Positions 1 through 48,600 of a stretch of DNA of 64,000 nt are shown piece after piece; position 1 is the first letter of the stretch; each line of letters starts with the position of its first letter. A program made the translations under genes and the position numbers. Source of the DNA: Tubulanus polymorphus (taxonomy: Eukaryota > Nemertea > Palaeonemertea > Tubulaniformes > Tubulanidae); contig NC_134027.1 in the NCBI RefSeq assembly GCF_964204645.1, positions 22,432,485 through 22,496,484 of the forward strand. The letters run 5' to 3'. The notes beneath the pieces are model-generated. The model did no database searches and was not told where the DNA came from. It worked only from the letters and a program-made list of their open reading frames with translations.

Positions 1-1839
1 TATTTTCCCCTCATACCTTATGTACCACGGGAATGGTCGGAATGTGATAGAGTTATCTAATCTAATCTTATGAAAATGTCATCGAAATCAGTCATGAGTT
101 CGGTGTTCGCTATATCTTCAGGGTGCGTCGCTACGTTATTTAGACCGGGTTAATTGCGTCCGTTCCAATAAGCCTTTTTACAGTTACCAGGCGCCATTTT
201 TTTGGGTACCCACCGGGTCCGCATTGTTGAATTTTTTGTCCCTTTTTTTCCCCGTTTAATATTTCTATTTCGTTCATATCTCTGGATTGGATAAAGATAG
301 AAACAAAGTGAAAATATCGATGAACTCGGCTGATAATAAACTTTTTAGGATATCACTCATTTGTTAAGTTAATGCAACAATGCGCACTGGTGAAGTTATA
401 AACATTGATATCGTCTTCCCGATAATTCAACTTGAATTATTGCTCATCTCATTCAAAAGTTCGTAATTCTTACAAATTTTAATCTACATTTTTGAAGTTT
501 TCAGGATCAATAGCCATCTATATGTGGTCATATATACCTTTTACTGTTTTCAATTATCCGTATTAGTTTTTAAGTAGTTGCGAGTCAAACTTCCAAAACA
601 CGTTTTCTAGAGTATCATGTTTGCATATTTATATCAAGAAATTTGACAATTCAACCGGTCCTACTTTGTTAAAATCAAAATTTTCAGTAACTATGGAAAC
701 AAGGGCACCTAGTTATTTGAAAAAATGGTAAATAGAGATATATTTCTAGTAACACAGGGACAGACTACGGGTTTGGAGGGTCGGTAGTCCGGACCCCTGC
801 TCCTTCCCATTAAGGTTACCATCTTTGTCAAGACAGTGATCGCATAAAACCTACAAATCTAACACTCTTTTGCAAATTAAATTGTTTTGGATGTATATGT
901 TTCAACACCGAGGAGCACCCTACTCGCAGCCTTAATATACAGAAAATGTCCTTATTTCTGGACCCCTCTCCCAATCATCTAAGATAGTCAAAAAAGTCGA
1001 AATAAGTCTTCTAGTGTCAGGCATTTAAGTTTCATTGATCTCCCGTAAATATTATATTGTTTCACAGTATATTGCATCAATGAAATATGGCCGTTTGCAG
1101 GTGATTCTGGAGCCAGTTGCTCAAAAGTTAACCATATTTCATAGAAATATGTGCTAAACATTTATTATGTATTTCGCAGCCGACATTGAGATAAGTAGGC
1201 TAGGTAGAGATAGGTGTAGGGCTGTGACTGAATAGCTATGGTCGTGAGCGGCATTTATGATAAGATTGGACCTCGGGTGCGGCGGGTTCCTACAGCCAGC
1301 GAGTCGTGCAACTTGCCAAGTTTCTTATCGGTCGGTATCATAAACCTACCAACTACAACAAACATTGAGTAGTTATTGGGTTTATGTGGGGTGCCTCCGA
1401 GAATGAGTCATGGGATAGGAGCGACTGGAATTTTACGGGAACTCCCACGTTCATGTCAAGTTATGAATTTATCGAAAATTGCAATATGACATAAAAAATG
1501 TAATTTTGATATCGAACGATGTTTTACAATTGATTTAAAATTGGAAATAAAATTTTGGAAAAAAGGCGCGATGGCAGCACAGTATGGTAAAATTCAATGC
1601 AAATGTGCTATATTGGATACAACTCGACGCGATCGGGTTCGTGCTGATGCTGCTCTTGCTTTTTGAGCTGGTAAGTGTTACTAAGGGATTACTCATCTTC
1701 ATTCACCGCAATAAAAATCGTACTAAATGTTACTTAGCATCAAAGGTCTAAGTTTCGATGAGTTTGAATAATATTCGAAGCATTTAGCTCCCAAAGTACC
1801 GGGGCTGCCATGGCTGAAGAGCTTGGTTATTCAACAAAT
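1..1839. other. gene-free stretch
   Basis: No open frame with a recognisable domain or exon-like structure is seen on either strand. The stretch is AT-rich. It contains one copy of the dispersed repeat R1 (262-560), and a short ATCTAATCTAATCTTA run near 55-72 that resembles the 3' tail of a decayed retroelement (the same TAATC words recur near 11030 and 11260). Confidence 0.6.
262..560 (+). repeat. dispersed repeat R1, copy 1
   Basis: This segment matches 28190-28440 in direct orientation at high identity, for example the shared words GGATTGGAT, AACATTGATATCGTCTTCCC and TTTTTGAAGTTTTCAGGATC. Relative to this copy, the second copy lacks about 68 bases after the CGATAATTC motif. No coding capacity or terminal inverted repeat is seen, so the class of element is unknown. 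Confidence 0.8.
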
Positions 1840-3092
1840 TTACCGTAAAATTTTGTTGATATTGAGACTATTTCTAAGATACGTGGATGTGTGTTGATCA
1901 GGGTATTCTTTAAAAAAATGGCGAAGTTTGTCGGAAAACGTAGGGTATTTTCGGAAATTTGTCACAAATTGTCCTTGTAAAATATGTTCTTTATACCATA
2001 TCCATTACAGTACAAATTTCTAATTTTCATTCATAATCACCCCCAAAGTTTTAGATTCGGTGAAACACTTTCCGATTTTAATGAAAAAAAACTAATCTAC
2101 AAACAGTAAAACTGCGCCCAACTGGAATCAATTTGATAATCGATTATCAAATGCTAGAGTTTTAAGATCTAACAATTAATCCTTGCTAGTCAATCGATGT
2201 TTTTAAATCTAATCCCAAAACCCATTTGTTAATCAAAGCTTTTAATTAAACAGGTTTTAGTTTTCTCTGTTTTATGTTCGCTTTTTATGGATGATGTAAA
2301 TGAGGATATTTTATATGGATTTTAGGCTGAATGAATCATCATTATTATCAATCATTATTTAATTATCACAAAATGGTTTTAAGATTTTTGTTCGCAATCA
2401 CTGGAAATTCGAGTTATAGGCAATGGAAATTTGAATGAACCTATTACAAATGCAAATTCAACTTGACAGGACTTTAAATTTGAAGTATCGTATATGAGGT
2501 AAGAGTGTCATTTTAAAAGGGACTGGTAGAATATCTGATACATCTACGTACATCGTATATTTGAAATTATCAGTTAAGAATATTCTAAAAAGTTGGAATG
2601 TACAGGGTCATATATATCGCGGTATATGTTATTCTAGCTAGTGCGCGGTGTCCTGTCCAATGGACCGCATTGAACCAGTTCATATTGTGGTCAGTCTTGA
2701 CATTGTGCTCTGGTCATTCAAATAGTTGTATTTGAATGGAACCAGTTCAGAGGATTAATTCTTATCGTACGTTGAATTTACTATACGCGCGCATTTATGT
2801 CCAGTCCTCGCGCGCGGATAGGTGAGTTGAATCTAGAATTTTCTTTAAATTCAGGGGCAATTTTACTTAAAGAATTGATTGAGTACATTTATGTCAACTG
2901 ATTTAAAAAAAAAACTGGTTGGTGAAGTTGCAGGTTCATTTCGCGGGTGATCTAACTTATACAGAGATATTGATTTTTCCAGCCGAAATCAAAATTTGTA
3001 ATGTATCAAATTCTTTGTTTTTTTCAGATCGGCCATTCCTCACCTCTTCTTCGTCAGGATCTGATTGCTGCACATACCACCAGGCGGACTAA
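1840..3092 (+). repeat. dispersed repeat R2, copy in + orientation
   Basis: The segment reappears as a reverse complement at about 12135-13070 and, in part, at 10085-10335. Landmarks shared with the inverted copy, in order, are the GGGTATTC motif near 1900, the AGTTAAGAATATTCT word near 2572, the ATTGTGCTCTGGTCATTCAAATAG region near 2703, the GCGCGCG cluster near 2790-2815, and the CAGGATCTGATTGCTGC word near 3055. No protein is recognisable. It may be the non-coding part of a LINE, since one copy abuts LINE coding remains at 10325. Confidence 0.75.
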
Positions 3093-3689
3093 ACAAAGAC
3101 TAACAACCCAAGACCTTTAGAATTGATCCACATAGAAATCTGTGGTGAGTAGATTTGTCGTCGTATATAATATTGGATGTTACTACAGAGTACATGTATC
3201 ACTCAAATTAACAGTTTTAATGGTGATCGTTGCGGTTTTTGGTTTACCTATGTTATGGCTGTTAGTTGGCAGTCTGCCAAGAGTATGTTAAATCGCGGCA
3301 CAAAATTTAGTGGTAATACTTACGGAGTTGTCTTTTATCGTGAAGCGAGTAGAATTGATGCGCGGGGGTCAGGCCAGTAAGTTTCGAACGGCTACGCGTT
3401 CAGTCAAATATGAAGTGTTAAGTCACGTGACTGTCCCAACTTTCTGGCTGGCACAACTTGAAGGCGTTTCGTCCCTTGTATTTTTATATAGCAAAGCGTC
3501 ACCACCGTCTGATAATGATCCTTAACGACCAATTGTTTATCGGAACTTTATAGCGGATAAATAAAGAATATCAACACAAGGTATTTCCGTGATATTTTGA
3601 ATTTATTCGCAGTTCATATTAAGCGCCATTCTCGCGTGATTATCAACAACAACCCGGAAATAAAATCAAAGCCCATCGCCAAACCCCTA
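3093..3689. other. no gene seen
   Basis: Two short open frames (67 and 71 codons) overlap here in different frames, but neither shows a domain, a signal peptide or splice-site support. I see no assignable feature. Confidence 0.5.
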
Positions 3690-4445
3690 TAATATATAAT
3701 ATATATATATCTTTATTGTCAGAGAATATTCTCGTATGACACATACAAATATAAATATAAGCGGATACAGTTAGTAAAGACATTTACACATACATACAAC
3801 TGCAAAATCAGTGAAAGTGATTACATATTATGATCTGATTTGATTAACTAGATTATTGAAGTGATTTAATATCTTTTACTTTTTTCAAAAACTTTGATAA
3901 ATTGATACTATTGATGGGGTTTCTCATAAATTTGGCAACTTTATATGTGTTTGGACGAATAATAATATTTCTTGGGATGTGTATGGCACGTGCATCACTA
4001 TACTGAGGGCAATATAAAATAACATGGACTTCTTCCTCTATCTCATTAAGATTACAAAATTCACATATACGTTGATGATGGGGTGTAGGGGGCGCAGCCA
4101 TCTCCCAGTTTCCACACGCAGGTCATGACTAGAGCATCTGAACCGAGCAATAGTGGATCTCATCTGTTTCGGATAATCCAGATACAATTCATAAGAAATA
4201 CTAGATTTAAAATGTCGATATAAAAGTGCCTTATTAGACGCATGGATCCAGTTAAACCATCGTTGTGTGTATTGGTCTTTTAAGCGCTGTTCAACCGAGC
4301 GAAAAAAACCATGTTTCGGCTGTTCAACAGATCGAGGCGTGATTATCGGGTGTATTTGACTGGTTACCGCATTACTCGTGTTACCCTTACCGGAAACTAG
4401 AGATGTACCGACGCCCCAAATTATAACAGCGTAGATATTTAACTA
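3690..4445 (-). mobile_element. 5'-truncated LINE (non-LTR retrotransposon) 3' end
   Basis: Read on the minus strand, the sequence encodes the typical C-terminus of a LINE endonuclease-reverse transcriptase polyprotein. A stretch containing RSTIARFRCSSHDLRVETG is followed, after a one-base frameshift, by a CCHC-like zinc motif (CEFCNLNE..., then H and C: C-x2-C-x8-H-x4-C type). The open part of the zinc motif is 3853-4101. The 3' UTR ends with AATAAAG and an (AT)n tail at 3690-3715. The element is cut off upstream at about 4445, as expected for incomplete reverse transcription. The frameshift shows that it is dead. Confidence 0.85.
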
Positions 4446-13986: not shown

Positions 13987-14937
13987 ATGAATTCTACTCA
14001 GATGCAAATTGGTCGTACTCACAGCAGTAACATGGTCCTTATGTATGTGGTGAACAAGTCTGGAATCTACCTAACAGTGTCACTGGTCATTCTGCCTTTC
14101 TTGTTCCTGTTAGGAGCTTTTGGAAATTCAGCTACATTCTTGATAATGATAAGTCGCAGATTTCGCAGTTTGTCTTACGCTAACTATCTGATCGTTTTGT
14201 CTCTCAGTGATTTCATATTCTGTCTCGGTTTTACAATGATGCCTGTTTTACAGTTTGTTATCTTGCATGTAGAAGATGTTCCAATATTCTTCATGAATTC
14301 ACTGATCAGTTGTCAAATCTATGATTTTGTTATAGCGTTTGCAGCTTGCAATAGTTCGTGGTTGATAGTAGCAGTATCTCTAGAACGTGCGGCAGTTGTG
14401 CTCTTCCCGTTCACATCTCGTTTGATATGTACACCGAGATTCGCTAGGTTTGTTATAGTGATAATTGCTGCAGTGAATATACTGGTTAGATGTCTCTCAC
14501 CTGCTTCATCCATACATTTCAGTGATCAGTTTGTCGGATGTTATTATGAATTATTCGACCAAATAGCATCTTTTATTGTAGGTGTCATTCACGCGTACAT
14601 TTTACCGTTGTCTTTAATCATTACATCAAATTTGGTTATAATCGTTCAATTATTCAGAAGTTCAGTAATAGTTTCGTCTGGTCAAAAATCTACAAAATCA
14701 AAACGCACGACAATAATGCTTGTAACAGTTTCATTCGCATTCGCAATATTTACACTTCCAGTCACTATTACTGCAATGATGCCAGTTTCTTCAGGACAGA
14801 AAGAATCTCTTTTGGACATTTTCAATCAGTTTCAAGTTTGTAACTATGCGGTAAATTTCTACATATATCTTTTACTGGGACGAGAAATTCGTGAATATTT
14901 CTGTATGAAAATTCGCTGTAGAAATTTCGAAAAATAA
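13987..14937 (+). CDS. class A (rhodopsin-like) G-protein-coupled receptor, peptide-receptor-like
   Basis: A single uninterrupted 316-codon exon. Seven hydrophobic segments are visible. TM1 has GNSATF (the GN motif), TM2 has LSLSDF (the LxxxD motif), TM3 starts at the Cys of ISCQIYDF and ends with ER in place of DRY exactly 25 residues later. A Cys in the second extracellular loop (VGCYYE) can pair with the TM3 Cys. TM6 has FAIFTLP, and TM7 ends in NFYIY, a variant of NPxxY lacking the proline. The NFxxY/GREIREYF end resembles FMRFamide- and related peptide-receptor-like families common in lophotrochozoans; the ligand is unknown. NST at the start is a possible N-glycosylation site. The start ATG is the first in frame, and an intronless layout is common in expanded receptor families. 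It acts at the plasma membrane. A decayed sister copy lies just upstream. Confidence 0.9.
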   Translation: MNSTQMQIGRTHSSNMVLMYVVNKSGIYLTVSLVILPFLFLLGAFGNSATFLIMISRRFRSLSYANYLIVLSLSDFIFCLGFTMMPVLQFVILHVEDVPIFFMNSLISCQIYDFVIAFAACNSSWLIVAVSLERAAVVLFPFTSRLICTPRFARFVIVIIAAVNILVRCLSPASSIHFSDQFVGCYYELFDQIASFIVGVIHAYILPLSLIITSNLVIIVQLFRSSVIVSSGQKSTKSKRTTIMLVTVSFAFAIFTLPVTITAMMPVSSGQKESLLDIFNQFQVCNYAVNFYIYLLLGREIREYFCMKIRCRNFEK

Positions 14938-43276: not shown

Positions 43277-45570
43277 TCAGCAAAGTTCTTCGAACGACAG
43301 ATTATTTCCGTGTTTCGTCGTCGTCGTCGTCGCAGGATTGCCGGTGCGCGCGCCGTTCTCCATCATATCGCCGCACCGATTCAACGACGAATTCAAAACG
43401 TCCGCAGTCGGCGCGGCGAGCTCGTCGGCGACGACGACGCGCTCGAGTCCGGCGAGCTCGACGTACGACGTCGCGAAGCCGTCGTTGTCGAACCGGTTGT
43501 GTCCCGGCGTCGGCGGCGTCTCCGTCAAGCCAGCCAAACCGGTTTTGTCGTCGCGACGGTCGTTCAAACCGGCCGACGGTTTCACGATGCTGTGCAGCGT
43601 TAGATGGTGCCGTTGCAGCGAGATCTTGTTCGCGAAACACTGACCGCAGATGTGACACGAGAACGGCTTCTCGCCGAGGTGGCTTTGTAAATGTCGGTGC
43701 AACGCGTTCGATTGTTTGAAGCGTTGCGGACACATCGAGCACTGATACGGCCGGTGGCCGGTGTGTATGCGCATGTGAGTATTCAGATGAGACGACTGAG
43801 TGAACTGTTTCAAACATACCTAGGAAAACAAATACAGAATGAATCAGATGGCCATGTTTGCGCTAGGTTTTAACTCTTTCAGGGCCCGGTTTCATAAAAA
43901 AGTTTAACTCGAATTTTTGGTGTAATTGCCATTGGTTACTTCATGTATTCAAAGAGGACAATTCAAACTTTTTCGTGAAACTGGACGCAGTGCTGACTGA
44001 TTAATACCCAAAAGCACTGGATATAACTTGAGCACCCCAACGTGTTGAATAACGGGCATACCACTTGAGTGTGTTTACACCGGTGTATCATTAGTTACTA
44101 ATACCACACTATGTTAAACAGGTGCAGCCATATTTCAATAGAGATAAAAACTAATCACTAATAACATCAATACACCACACTGCGGTGTAGACACATCCAT
44201 GGTTTAGAAAGACCAGGGCATGCTCGACTCAATTACGTCTGACAGGATTTGAAGGATAGTCTACAATGAATAAGTTTCAAAGTCTACTATAGGCAAGGCA
44301 TCAAAATCTAGTCTGGCGCATGCAAGGCTATAACGATTTAGAATCTGGCATAAGAACGAATTCAAAATCTTGGGCCTTGACGGTCTGCAATGTGCTTGCC
44401 TTCAAAAGTCTAGGACACAAAACTTAAAAGTGCCTTCTTGTATGTGCTTGGCTTCAACGTGACTGTCTTAAATAATTGGCATGAAATCCAAAAATTTGGG
44501 TCTAAGACTGTCAAGGTATTAAAAGTCTGGATCCAGTTGCACATGGGAGATGGGCCTGGTTTTATAGACTGGTATTACCTTAAACCTGGGGGCTAACTCA
44601 ATTGATTCAGCTCCATGCCTTTTAACTCAATTAAAAACGAATGAGTTAGCATAACATAGCAAACATAACACACAACATAATGCCCTGGCTTTATGTCTAC
44701 AGCGTGGTACAATTTCAATTTGACAGCGTTGAGTTAAAATAAATTCATTTTCAATGTTTCAACTTGAGGCAACTTATAATATAATAATAATATAATATGT
44801 GTCTTATATAGCGCTAAATCCAGCCAGGCTGCTCAGAGCACTTTACATTTTTCGATATTATTACCCCGGCCAATTTTATACTCTAACATGTATCAGTCAT
44901 CTCTCCCTGGGGAGAAGTAACACCGAGCTGCTAACAAACGCTCAGGAGTCATCTATCAGGCCAGGTACCTATTTACTCCTCGGTGGAGAGAGGCAATGAG
45001 GATAAGTGTCTTGCCCGAGGACACTACGGCAATGTACGGGGTTCGAACCCACGACCTGGCTTCCCAGAAACGAACGCTCTAATCGCTCGGCCACACCGCT
45101 CCACTTAAACTCAGAACAGAGGAACTTGATCCAGTGATATAGAAATAGACACACGTAAGCCGCTGCAAACGAAACGAAAACATAATACATTACCTCACAT
45201 CTATAGGGGCGTTCGCCCGTGTGCACTCTGATGTGTTTTTGTTGATGAGCTTTCTGCGTGAAACGTTTCGGGCAGAATTCGCACGTGAACGGGCGCACGA
45301 CGTCGATACCGACGACTTTGGTCGACATCGTCGGCGGCGACGACTTGGTCGGCGATGACGACGACTGCATCGACGCGCGGGTCATCTGACTGACGAATTC
45401 TTCGGCTGAAAAAAAAATGTTCGTATTTTACGGGTGATTACGGTTTCGTGAATAGGCGCCGATTTTTCGGGTCAACCCCAAACCGAATACCGAAGAACGG
45501 CGCAAGACGAATTTCAAGAAACAAATTCAGTCGACGGTTTTAACAAGTAATAGTTGTAGTAGTAGTAGTA

Positions 45571-45629
<59 letters not shown>

Positions 45630-48600
45630 TAGATGCATGAGCCAATTGGCCCTTTCATCCTCATTGTCCTCTTCGTGTCTTAATACATTCAGTTGACCTT
45701 GTTAAGTTGAATGTGTGTCATACAAAGTAACACATTCAGTCGACTGTCGTACCAAGGAACATATTTAGTCCACTGTAAAAGCCAGGAATACATTCAGTCG
45801 GGTGTTATACCTGGTAATACATTCGGTCGACTGTATGAGTTCTACGGTAATAACAGGTAACACATTCAGTCGAGCAGACGAGAAGATACACAATATCCGT
45901 GTATGATGATGACGAGAGAAATCCCACATCAGTACGCCTGATGATGGCTAACACTTGTTAGCCGAAACGTCGCTCCTCAAATACAATCACTCTGATATAG
46001 AATTTTTCAATCTTGGCTTCGTTATTGTGGGATTTCTCTCGTCATTCAGTCGAGCATATTAAGTGTATGTAATACCCAAGTCGACAGTATGTAATACCAA
46101 GTAGTACATTCAGTCAACTGTATGTAAACCGTAATACTAAGTCATACATTCTGTTCACTGTATGTGACATACTGTAATAACGGTATGTTATACCAAGAAA
46201 TACATTCAGTCAACTGTGTGTAAACTGAAATACTAAGTAACACATTCAGTCGCCCATATGAAGTTGACAGTATCTAATACCAAACAAGGAGCCTATCGGC
46301 TTATACAGCTCCGCTGTGTGATTTGAAGGAATAGAAGCTGCATACCTAGGGGTGCCCCTTTTGGCCAAATCCAAAAAAGGCTCTGTACTTTGTAGGTATT
46401 GGTCCATAGAACATTCATACCAAATCTGGACTTGATCTGATTAAAACTGTAGGACTAGTAGCGATTTGAAGAAAAAGTTGACAGACGCACGAACAAATGA
46501 ACGGACGAACGGACGGACGATGATGGCTCACCCCCTAACCCATTAGCTTCGGTCACAGCGGAGCTAAAAATTCAGTCAACTGTATGTCGACTGTAATATC
46601 AAGTATGTCAACTGTAATATCAAGTAATGCATTATGTCGGCTGTATGTGGCAAACTGTAATAACGACTAAAAGATTCAGACGACTGTTATATCGAGTGGG
46701 CCAATTACATCCAGGCAGTCAACTGTGAGTCGACTCTAATAATACCGATTCACTAATTTAGTCGACGGTAATTTTTAGTCAACCATAGAGAGCATCTACG
46801 TGTCGTAATACTTTCACTCATCTGTAATAATCGTAATACCGAGTAAAGCCTAACAGGCAGATACGGTAATACTCACACGAAGGCACGGCTGATGGAAAAT
46901 CAGAGAATTTCATCCAATGCGGAATCACTTGGTGCAATTCGGATATTTCTTGTTTCACTTGGAAATTGCACAAAGCAGCAGATCTATCCAAGTTACAAGA
47001 CGGTGGGTATTGAATCAACCGCTGCTGCTGATGCCGCTGCTGCTGCTGCTGCTGACCTGTGTCGTGATCGGTTATGTAATCTCGCGTATCCGTGGTTGCA
47101 GATGCGTTTGTATCTGTGGCAGATGCATTCCCCAGATGCGACTTATCATTGTAACCATCGTCAGAGTGAACCCTGACTGGCAAACGCTTCCTTCGAGAAC
47201 CCTGAATAATAAAAGACATACACGTATTTGAAGTCGTTCTTACCGCTATTTCAAGGGCCTATTTCTCTACTATGACACAGTATCGATTCGCTGCCTAGAT
47301 TTATGCTCCTTCCAAGATTATTTGATGCCTTACCCAACAACATTCTTTCAATAAATTTTCACTATGTTTACTTTCCACCGCTTAAATCAAACTAACTTTT
47401 TTGCAACTGGCCCCTGGAGTTCATCATCAATTGAAATAGAACTAAAGAACACCACCGACTTCAAATGTGTTCATGACTTCACTGAAGACATTTTTTATTG
47501 AAAATGAACTAAAACACCAGACATCGGACATTTTGTCCACACACTTTCAAAAAGTTACCCTCCAGACTTCTTGCTGCAATGGTAAGTATCTGAAAGAGGA
47601 TTTTTCAGGCAGCAGATATATGGACGAGTGTGAATTGAACTCATATGTTAGTATCATTCGCCACGATAGCACGAGTGTCGGACCAGGCCCGAGCCTATCG
47701 ATCTCATTTAGCCCATAAGCCTATATTTCATTGAAATATATGCGCTATCTTGAATCAAGTGAGATATCCCGGGAACTAGCGGTATATGTGAAAATAATCG
47801 GCACATTATAAAATTTTCTCTGAAAACAATCATGTTTTCCGAGATCTCTAAGTTTCTCACCTTTAAGTTACTTTCATTCGAGCTGTCATGATTTCCCTCG
47901 AAATCTTCCTCATCTGAAACATAGAAAACAGTTCATGAGGTGCGGATCCAACGTGGTCTCGTGGGCCTTTTGAGTTTCCCTATCCGAATGAACTCTTAAC
48001 ATTTTACTGCCTTATAATAAATACTACATGGAAACTTATAACACACTTTTCTTGTATAATTGTTAGGATAAGGAAACGTTTTGGTAGGGAATTAATAACC
48101 TGATATTTTGCTAGTTGATCTTTGAGTTTGCCATCTCAACCAGGTCACTTCGTCGGCTGCCGCGACAAACTTATCTAGTAATTCCGAATGTTTTTCCAAA
48201 CAGCGAAACAACTGCTCCTCGGTGACCTCTGCAAAAACAAAACCATTACGAAATCAGATTCATGTAACATACCCTTCAACCCCTTCTAAGGGATCATTCA
48301 TTTATTACGTACGCATTAGGGGAGGGGGAGCTGGGTCAGTGCAATTGCGTACTATAATGCTTAATGTATATGAAAAAATGGCTGATTTTGCGTACAGAGG
48401 GGGAGGGGGGGTTGGATTAGTAGAATTTCATGCGTACGTAATAGATGAATGATCCCCAATCCAGATCAAAACCCTAATCTTAACACATTTGCTGCCGAAA
48501 CACTCCAAAACATACACAAAATGTAGCAGAAAAACAGGTTTCAACCATTCCATTAAGAAGTGAACTATAGTCACTTTGTTATGGTAAGGTTATGGACGTC

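Follow-up and report, generated by a model that had tools for sequence, protein, structure and literature searches.

The window, by which we mean the whole stretch of DNA that was analysed (64,000 nucleotides of Tubulanus polymorphus contig NC_134027.1), contains an insertion of about 170 bp that carries a single hammerhead motif and no gene of a Penelope-like element (PLE). Read directly from the plus strand, positions 45938-45971 have the sequence CTGATGA-T-GGCTAAC-ACTT-GTTAGCC-GAAACGTC. A scan of the 64-kb window with a fixed-spacing core pattern, in which up to three mismatches were allowed, gave one match, which has no mismatches, against 0.02 expected. This confirms the initial annotation, which had proposed a hammerhead-type core composed of CTGATGA, helix II and GAAA. 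The same annotation had described perfect inverted ends of 18 bases; the arms are indeed perfect, but they extend over 20 bp (45909-45928 and 46026-46045). The features of the insertion are listed in Table 1.

Table 1. Features of the insertion and of its hammerhead motif (positions in the window).
Feature	Position	Strand	Based on
Left target-site repeat CATTCAGTCGAGCA; last nt overlaps the mapped element end	45863..45876	.	14-nt direct repeat (row L001)
First cDNA, inverted, 5'-truncated: PLE 3' end with 36-nt tail (long), family +89 to +141	45876..45928	-	mapping
Left 20-bp inverted arm, shared PLE 3' end sequence	45909..45928	-	inverted-repeat search
Second cDNA, forward: TCAGTACGC via hammerhead to short 3' end, family -8 to +108	45929..46045	+	mapping
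TCAGTACGC, initiator-like; many copies have their start here or close by	45929..45937	+	copy-end mapping
Helix I, 5' strand, GC, 2 bp only	45936..45937	+	motif alignment; strands as in L085
Hammerhead core CUGAUGA	45938..45944	+	sequence, motif alignment, pattern scan
Helix II, 7 bp (45946-45952 / 45957-45963), loop ACUU	45946..45963	+	alignment, fold, covariation
Hammerhead core GAAA	45964..45967	+	sequence, motif alignment
Palindrome ACGU, begins with A45967	45967..45970	+	sequence
Cleavage triplet GUC	45969..45971	+	sequence, motif alignment
Helix I, 3' strand, GC, 2 bp only	45972..45973	+	motif alignment
Right 20-bp inverted arm, short PLE 3' end	46026..46045	+	inverted-repeat search, end pairing
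Right target-site repeat CATTCAGTCGAGCA; first three nt overlap the mapped element end	46043..46056	.	direct repeat (row L001)

The PLE stub is inserted into a loose local repeat (about 45690-46260, with phrases such as CATTCAGTCGAC), which is adjoined by an (AGT)28 microsatellite at 45546-45629. At 46306-46566, CAGCTCCGCTGTG and its complement (1 mismatch) border about 260 bp, possibly a MITE. Elsewhere in the window, positions 13987-14937 contain an open frame of 316 aa that is seven-helix receptor-like by eye, and a similar frame is present on the minus strand of a related locus (L062:3142-4128).

The initial annotation had found neither a clear cleavage triplet nor a closing helix I. An NUH triplet is present, however: it is GUC in the window copy and GUU in some sister copies, and cleavage is predicted between 45971 and 45972. 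Helix I also exists, with 45936-45937 pairing with 45972-45973, but it is short: beside the core only a C-G and a G-C pair form, and the next three positions are unpaired. With GUC standing directly after GAAAC, the motif has no helix III of its own. It is a genuine but weakened minimal hammerhead of the PLE type. Because helix I consists of only 2 bp, cleavage by the window copy is probably poor or absent, and cleavage of the monomer, with such a helix I and no helix III, is unlikely, in line with the earlier suggestion that a monomer may be inactive. In this copy, the hammerhead is carried along as a passenger. A search with the Rfam hammerhead models had been proposed as a check. No Rfam family reached the gathering threshold in the window, and the hammerhead models gave no match at E<=10 in 45600-46300 or 45910-46010. 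They likewise gave none at E<=10 in L062 (5290-5400; 4-bp helix I) or L064 (5-bp helix I), and none at gathering in eight related loci. As sister motifs with a helix I of 4-5 bp also fail, the Rfam scan is uninformative for this motif.

The genome (267.8 Mb) was then screened with two patterns. The tight pattern, CTGANGANGGC-N4..24-GCCGAAACGTC, has 168 genomic matches and its reversed control none; the loose pattern, CTGANGA-N8..26-GAAACGT, has 4,368 matches and its reversed control 74. The hammerhead motif is therefore not a chance occurrence. These counts refer to the whole genome; individual places were listed for up to about 100 matches per search. Among the approximately 100 loose-pattern matches listed, at least five types of helix II are present: GGCTAAC/GTTAGCC, GGCTGTT/AACAGCC, GACTAT/ATAGTC, GATCTC/GAGATC and GGCTAA/TTAGCC. 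CTGANGA and GAAA are conserved across family members, as the initial annotation had expected, most of the sister copies having been found by patterns that fix those letters.

In the window's lineage helix I is generally short: of 13 further motifs, 10 have 2 bp beside the core, and the range is 0-3. In a sister lineage, a helix I of 4-5 bp (CCAC/GTGG) was found in three of five motifs (L062, L096 and one of the two L063 copies) and is broken in L093 and in the other L063 copy, while a helix I of 5 bp (TATTC/GAATA) is present in all three L064 motifs. In the single-strand fold of the window motif, the core GAUG is paired with CGUC, and the same is seen for L062; since L062 has a helix I of 4 bp, this pairing is not specific to the window type. 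In the single-strand folds of L096 and L064, helices I and II form. Together with the lengths of helix I, these folds therefore support the hammerhead structure for the family, and do so weakly for the window's lineage.

Covariation was analyzed using 17 hand-chosen motifs of common length. Seven motifs were left out because of indels (L046, L087, L089, L090, the plus-strand motif of L094, L098 and one L064 repeat); also left out were the L094 minus-strand motif, although its length is the common one, and numerous other copies belonging to the window's lineage. Changes on both sides were found for four of the five pairs in helix I and four of the seven in helix II, a number of pairs that was matched by 6 of 500 shuffles. 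The fraction of paired cells (76.5%) and the covariation score (0.305) were each reached by none of the 500 shuffles, nor were they ever reached when the helix pairing was slid (best values 51.5% and 0.193). One of the five covariation measures, the number of further pair types, did not rise above the shuffles (271 of 500). Hammerheads are expected to vary at N7 and at the last letter of the triplet; these two positions vary among the 17 motifs and the rest of the core is constant. This invariance is partly imposed, because most of the 17 motifs were found via patterns that fix parts of the core; these patterns leave N7, the inner pairs of helix II and helix I free. Sequence comparison thus shows that the family has a hammerhead core whose helices covary across lineages.

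One of the sister types forms a tandem array. At L064:420-1001 (G000:C8:14799500-14800500), a unit of 68-69 bp is repeated 8.4 times, and a recognisable PLE-type hammerhead with a 5-bp helix I and a GUU triplet is present in at least three units. For metazoan hammerheads, repeats of 150-450 bp have been described, which are much longer than this unit. Genome-wide, a 44-nt string of this type is matched exactly 522 times and its control not once; of the matches listed, some are 69 bp apart, three direct pairs are 2857 bp apart, and some lie near a contig end (C3:27803972-27804429 of 27807848).

Pieces of PLE genes were found next to related hammerheads. Of the 30 tight-pattern loci examined, three (L032, L046 and L047) contain pieces of a GIY-YIG endonuclease. 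In L047/L060, a window-type hammerhead follows a GIY-YIG domain (Pfam E=6.3e-5, which is above Pfam's cut-off), and in L046/L059 an endonuclease piece and an RT piece with YVDD precede it. A sister lineage is represented by L099, which has hammerheads of the L064 type and an uninterrupted frame of 833 aa (RVT_1, 6.3e-10; GIY-YIG, 1.6e-5). This frame is flanked by two pLTR stretches of 300 bp that are 99% alike, lie 2857 bp apart and each contain a hammerhead, and a truncated inverted copy is present on the left. The insertion, which looks recent, extends from about 84 to 4370 (G000:C2:13166500-13171100) and has a 13-bp target repeat. The L059 RT piece and the L060 GIY-YIG piece are 63% and 65% identical to the L099 protein, respectively; a further L060 RT piece, located on the other strand about 5 kb from the hammerhead, is 50% identical. 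The RT pieces of the window's lineage alone gave no Pfam match; the RT and endonuclease pieces in this lineage are broken, and they were found beside the hammerhead at only these three loci. The endonuclease piece has no relative in viral contigs, no plasmid matches the DNA of the element, and searches of solved structures and NCBIfam added nothing. As an aside, an RT frame that is LINE-like by eye interrupts the PLE gene of the window's lineage at L059:4555-5703 (minus strand).

An ORF with RT and GIY-YIG domains, which characterizes PLEs, is thus seen in relatives (L099, and as pieces in L047/L060 and L046/L059) and not in the window stub, whereas pLTRs, head-to-head inverted copies, a tail of 30-40 nt and a TSD are all found. 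The sequences show PLE descent, and we conclude that the window element is very probably a dead-on-arrival insertion of a PLE, with the anatomy and origin described below. The initial annotation had offered a Penelope-derived, non-autonomous unit as one possibility. Both parts of that proposal hold: sister loci have RT/GIY-YIG pieces and L099 an uninterrupted PLE frame, and the window copy itself carries no PLE protein.

To compare copy ends, copy L080 was mapped on the loci, with the C of CTGATGA taken as +1. The 3' ends of the 122 mapped halves fall into two classes: 58 are located at +102 to +112 (short), 58 at +133 to +145 (long) and 6 elsewhere. The 36-nt difference between the two classes is the PLE tail. 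The 5' ends were studied in the first 31 listed insertions chosen only by their 3' anchor, which provided 49 halves. Five of these ends are upstream of -12, 20 at -12 to -3, a promoter-like start zone shortly before the hammerhead, seven at -2 to +2, three at +3 to +32, none at +33 to +36, and 14 beyond +36; single positions are uncertain by a few nt, because joined ends often share GTAC. In the longer copies L059, L074, L075 and L080, the start-like TCAGTACGC or TCAATACGC is preceded by TATAAAT at a distance of about 30 nt. Together, the copy ends and this TATA box suggest that transcription starts near TCAGTACGC. In family coordinates, cleavage is predicted between +34 and +35. As none of the 49 ends lies at this site, cleaved RNA is no visible template, though it could still account for a share of below about 6%. 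This agrees with the report that hammerhead mutants of a lizard PLE leave insertion in vitro unchanged (PMC11167929). One of the 122 mapped halves, in L031, which is outside the set of 31 insertions, begins at +34, beside the cleavage site. At another locus (L039:1171-1442), the start region (-4 to about +21) is repeated at least eight times as short units on the same strand, upstream of a full copy, as if the first 25 nt of the template had been copied over and over.

The combination of the two classes of 3' ends was compared in 44 head-to-head pairs; a further 33 rows, in which just one half was in range, are outside this set. A short and a long end are combined in 42 pairs, none has two short and none two long ends, and two pairs (L065 and L076), counted in the 44 and not in the 42, have one unclassed end. 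For the 21 pairs whose loci had been picked up through their similarity to the region in the window, the window copy included, all 21 are short/long, and for the 23 pairs from pattern matches this number is 21. Of the 49 halves, 23 are short, 22 long and 4 other; with the two classes equally common, independent choice would give about half short/long pairs. Flank repeats of at least 8 nt were found in 31 of the 44 pairs versus 2.7% of re-paired flanks. The longest match among re-paired flanks is 14 nt, which is also the length of the window repeat; 13 of the 44 pairs have no flank repeat of at least 8 nt, and some repeats do not abut both ends. In sister lineages, 10 insertions were inspected (L099-L108), eight of which, with four other hammerhead types and clear target repeats of 11-17 nt, were scored; all eight are short/long, L105 and L107 by eye. 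The two that were left out, L104 and L106, have no clear target repeat and look short/long by eye; L109 and L110 are likewise outside these counts. The two end classes, the target repeat and the clustering of 5' ends are all patterns apparent at the level of DNA sequence.

We also compared the two arms of 26 hand-picked pairs with overlapping arms. In 19 of these, the arms of the same insertion are closer to each other than the between-insertion mean. Ten rare variants are common to both arms, versus a mean of 2.0 after re-pairing (27 of 500 permutations reach 10), and 151 are present in one arm only. The shared rare variants hint that both cDNAs of one insertion may be made from one RNA.

We propose tentatively, judging its chances to be a little short of even, that PLE insertion is obligately two-handed: the two strands would be primed at two fixed RNA sites 36 nt apart, one each, the tail would be present at exactly one end of every complete insertion, and the hammerhead would not be used to make the template. 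Within this two-handed reading, the two priming sites probably reflect a dimeric RT bound to one RNA, its two active sites each positioned at one of the starts. If the reading is true, the tail is not optional. The parts of the PLE literature consulted contain no statement of a strict rule of one short and one long end.

In the origin favoured here for the window copy, the PLE transcript would begin at TCAGTACGC, a short distance before the minimal type I hammerhead with which the PLE unit opens at its 5' end. The two strands of the target would be cleaved by the PLE enzyme at positions about 11-14 bp apart, and each exposed 3' end would prime reverse transcription within the RNA, the first at the far (tail) site and the second 36 nt upstream of it. 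The cDNA of the right piece, made from the short site, would run to the 5' end of the RNA (TCAGTACGC) and generate the hammerhead-bearing copy; that of the left piece, made from the long (tail) site, would stop after about 53 nt, and the two cDNA ends would be joined head to head at 45928/45929. The transcription start, the priming of two strands and the joining are steps that we infer. It follows from two-site priming and head-to-head joining that the inverted ends would be the part common to both cDNAs. These 20-bp ends are not TIRs; they are the 3' sequence that two PLE cDNAs, joined head to head, have in common. Given that the window copy lacks a PLE gene and contains one hammerhead, it would be expected neither to form circles of the retrozyme type nor to move autonomously.

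Perfect 20-bp inverted arms together with a direct repeat at the flanks could also belong to a MITE or a foldback DNA transposon with TIRs, in which the hammerhead-like string would be fortuitous. This origin is barely conceivable given that the outer ends are unlike, with one carrying 36 nt more, so that symmetrical TIRs are lacking; moreover, the arms differ freely in 5' truncation, the flank repeats vary in length, and the loose core string is 59-fold commoner genome-wide than its reversed control. What had been annotated as a foldback element with its own inverted ends is better described as two cDNA 3' ends in opposite orientation. It is also highly improbable that the element is a retrozyme, that is, a small non-autonomous circRNA retroelement that spreads via hammerhead self-cleavage of tandem copies, despite a size of about 170 bp that is near that of metazoan retrozymes (170-400 nt, according to the portion of PMC7229834 consulted) and a type I hammerhead core. 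Within the short flanks that were covered, loci L001-L098 contain no two neighbouring same-strand units that both reach the 3' end, except for L025, which looks like a second insertion nearby, and tandem repeats are fragments only, as in L021 and L039. Helix III is absent, none of the 49 copy ends lies at the cleavage site, and longer copies carry pieces of the PLE gene upstream. Instead of head-to-tail units that each have a type I hammerhead, the window contains one hammerhead in a head-to-head insertion. The retrozyme-like label of the initial annotation is therefore abandoned, and the tandem dimers for which it had suggested a search were, L025 apart, not found as full head-to-tail units in L001-L098.

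A further possibility concerns the activity of the motif: two family transcripts might pair via ACGU and cleave each other in trans as an active dimeric hammerhead. Reviews, as far as consulted, report that PLE hammerheads without helix III may cleave as dimers, and both ACGU and GUC are intact in the window copy. The palindrome could form a helix III between two copies, and the earlier idea that it serves dimer pairing fits the dimeric scheme of these reviews. A PLE protein could still help dimers, as reported for the lizard PLE (PMC11167929). Nevertheless, we regard dimeric activity as unlikely, as helix I of the window copy has only 2 bp and the 49 copy ends contain no trace of cleaved templates. 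The monomer fold, in which the core GAUG pairs with CGUC, also speaks against it, but L062 with its 4-bp helix I folds in the same way.

As a hammerhead, the motif in the window adds a further degraded case to a class that has already been described; what makes it valuable are the sister insertions to which it leads. These bear on the role of the hammerhead, the cleavage product of which is not seen as a template of the sampled insertions, and on how PLEs insert, with two priming sites, one per end; relatives in the same genome show how head-to-head copies arise. Both points, the role of the hammerhead and two-site insertion, can be tested in an in vitro PLE system of the published type.

Minimal type I hammerheads of PLEs were reportedly described by Cervera and de la Pena in 2014 and by Lunse, Weinberg and Breaker in 2017. 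According to the parts consulted of two reviews (PMC7761336, PMC6155905), such hammerheads without helix III are usual in PLEs. The window motif resembles them in having CUGANGA, helix II, GAAA, a GUH triplet and no helix III, and in its location at the border of pLTR and ORF; it differs in that helix I in its lineage is mostly 2 bp, versus 4-5 bp in some sisters in the same genome. With the metazoan non-LTR retrozymes, as far as described in the portion consulted of PMC7229834, the window copy shares its small size, the lack of coding capacity and a type I hammerhead, but those elements are head-to-tail tandems, mostly with helix III in invertebrates, whereas the window copy is a PLE stub. 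The Penelope elements of Adineta vaga have TATA and an initiator in the pLTR, head-to-head inverted pLTRs, a tail on one of them and TSDs (PMC3846280, in part), and the family described here is similar in all these respects. Unlike our proposal for this family, the A. vaga paper treats the tail as optional and proposes self-priming on an antisense template; the word hammerhead is absent from it. A further parallel is PAc, the Poseidon PLE of the lizard Anolis carolinensis, in which, according to the sections consulted of PMC11167929, a hammerhead is located at the start of the ORF, two internal RT start sites define the tail between them, and both target strands are cut and extended. For PAc no difference in RT start between the strands was reported in vitro, whereas the insertions of the T. 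polymorphus family have one of each.
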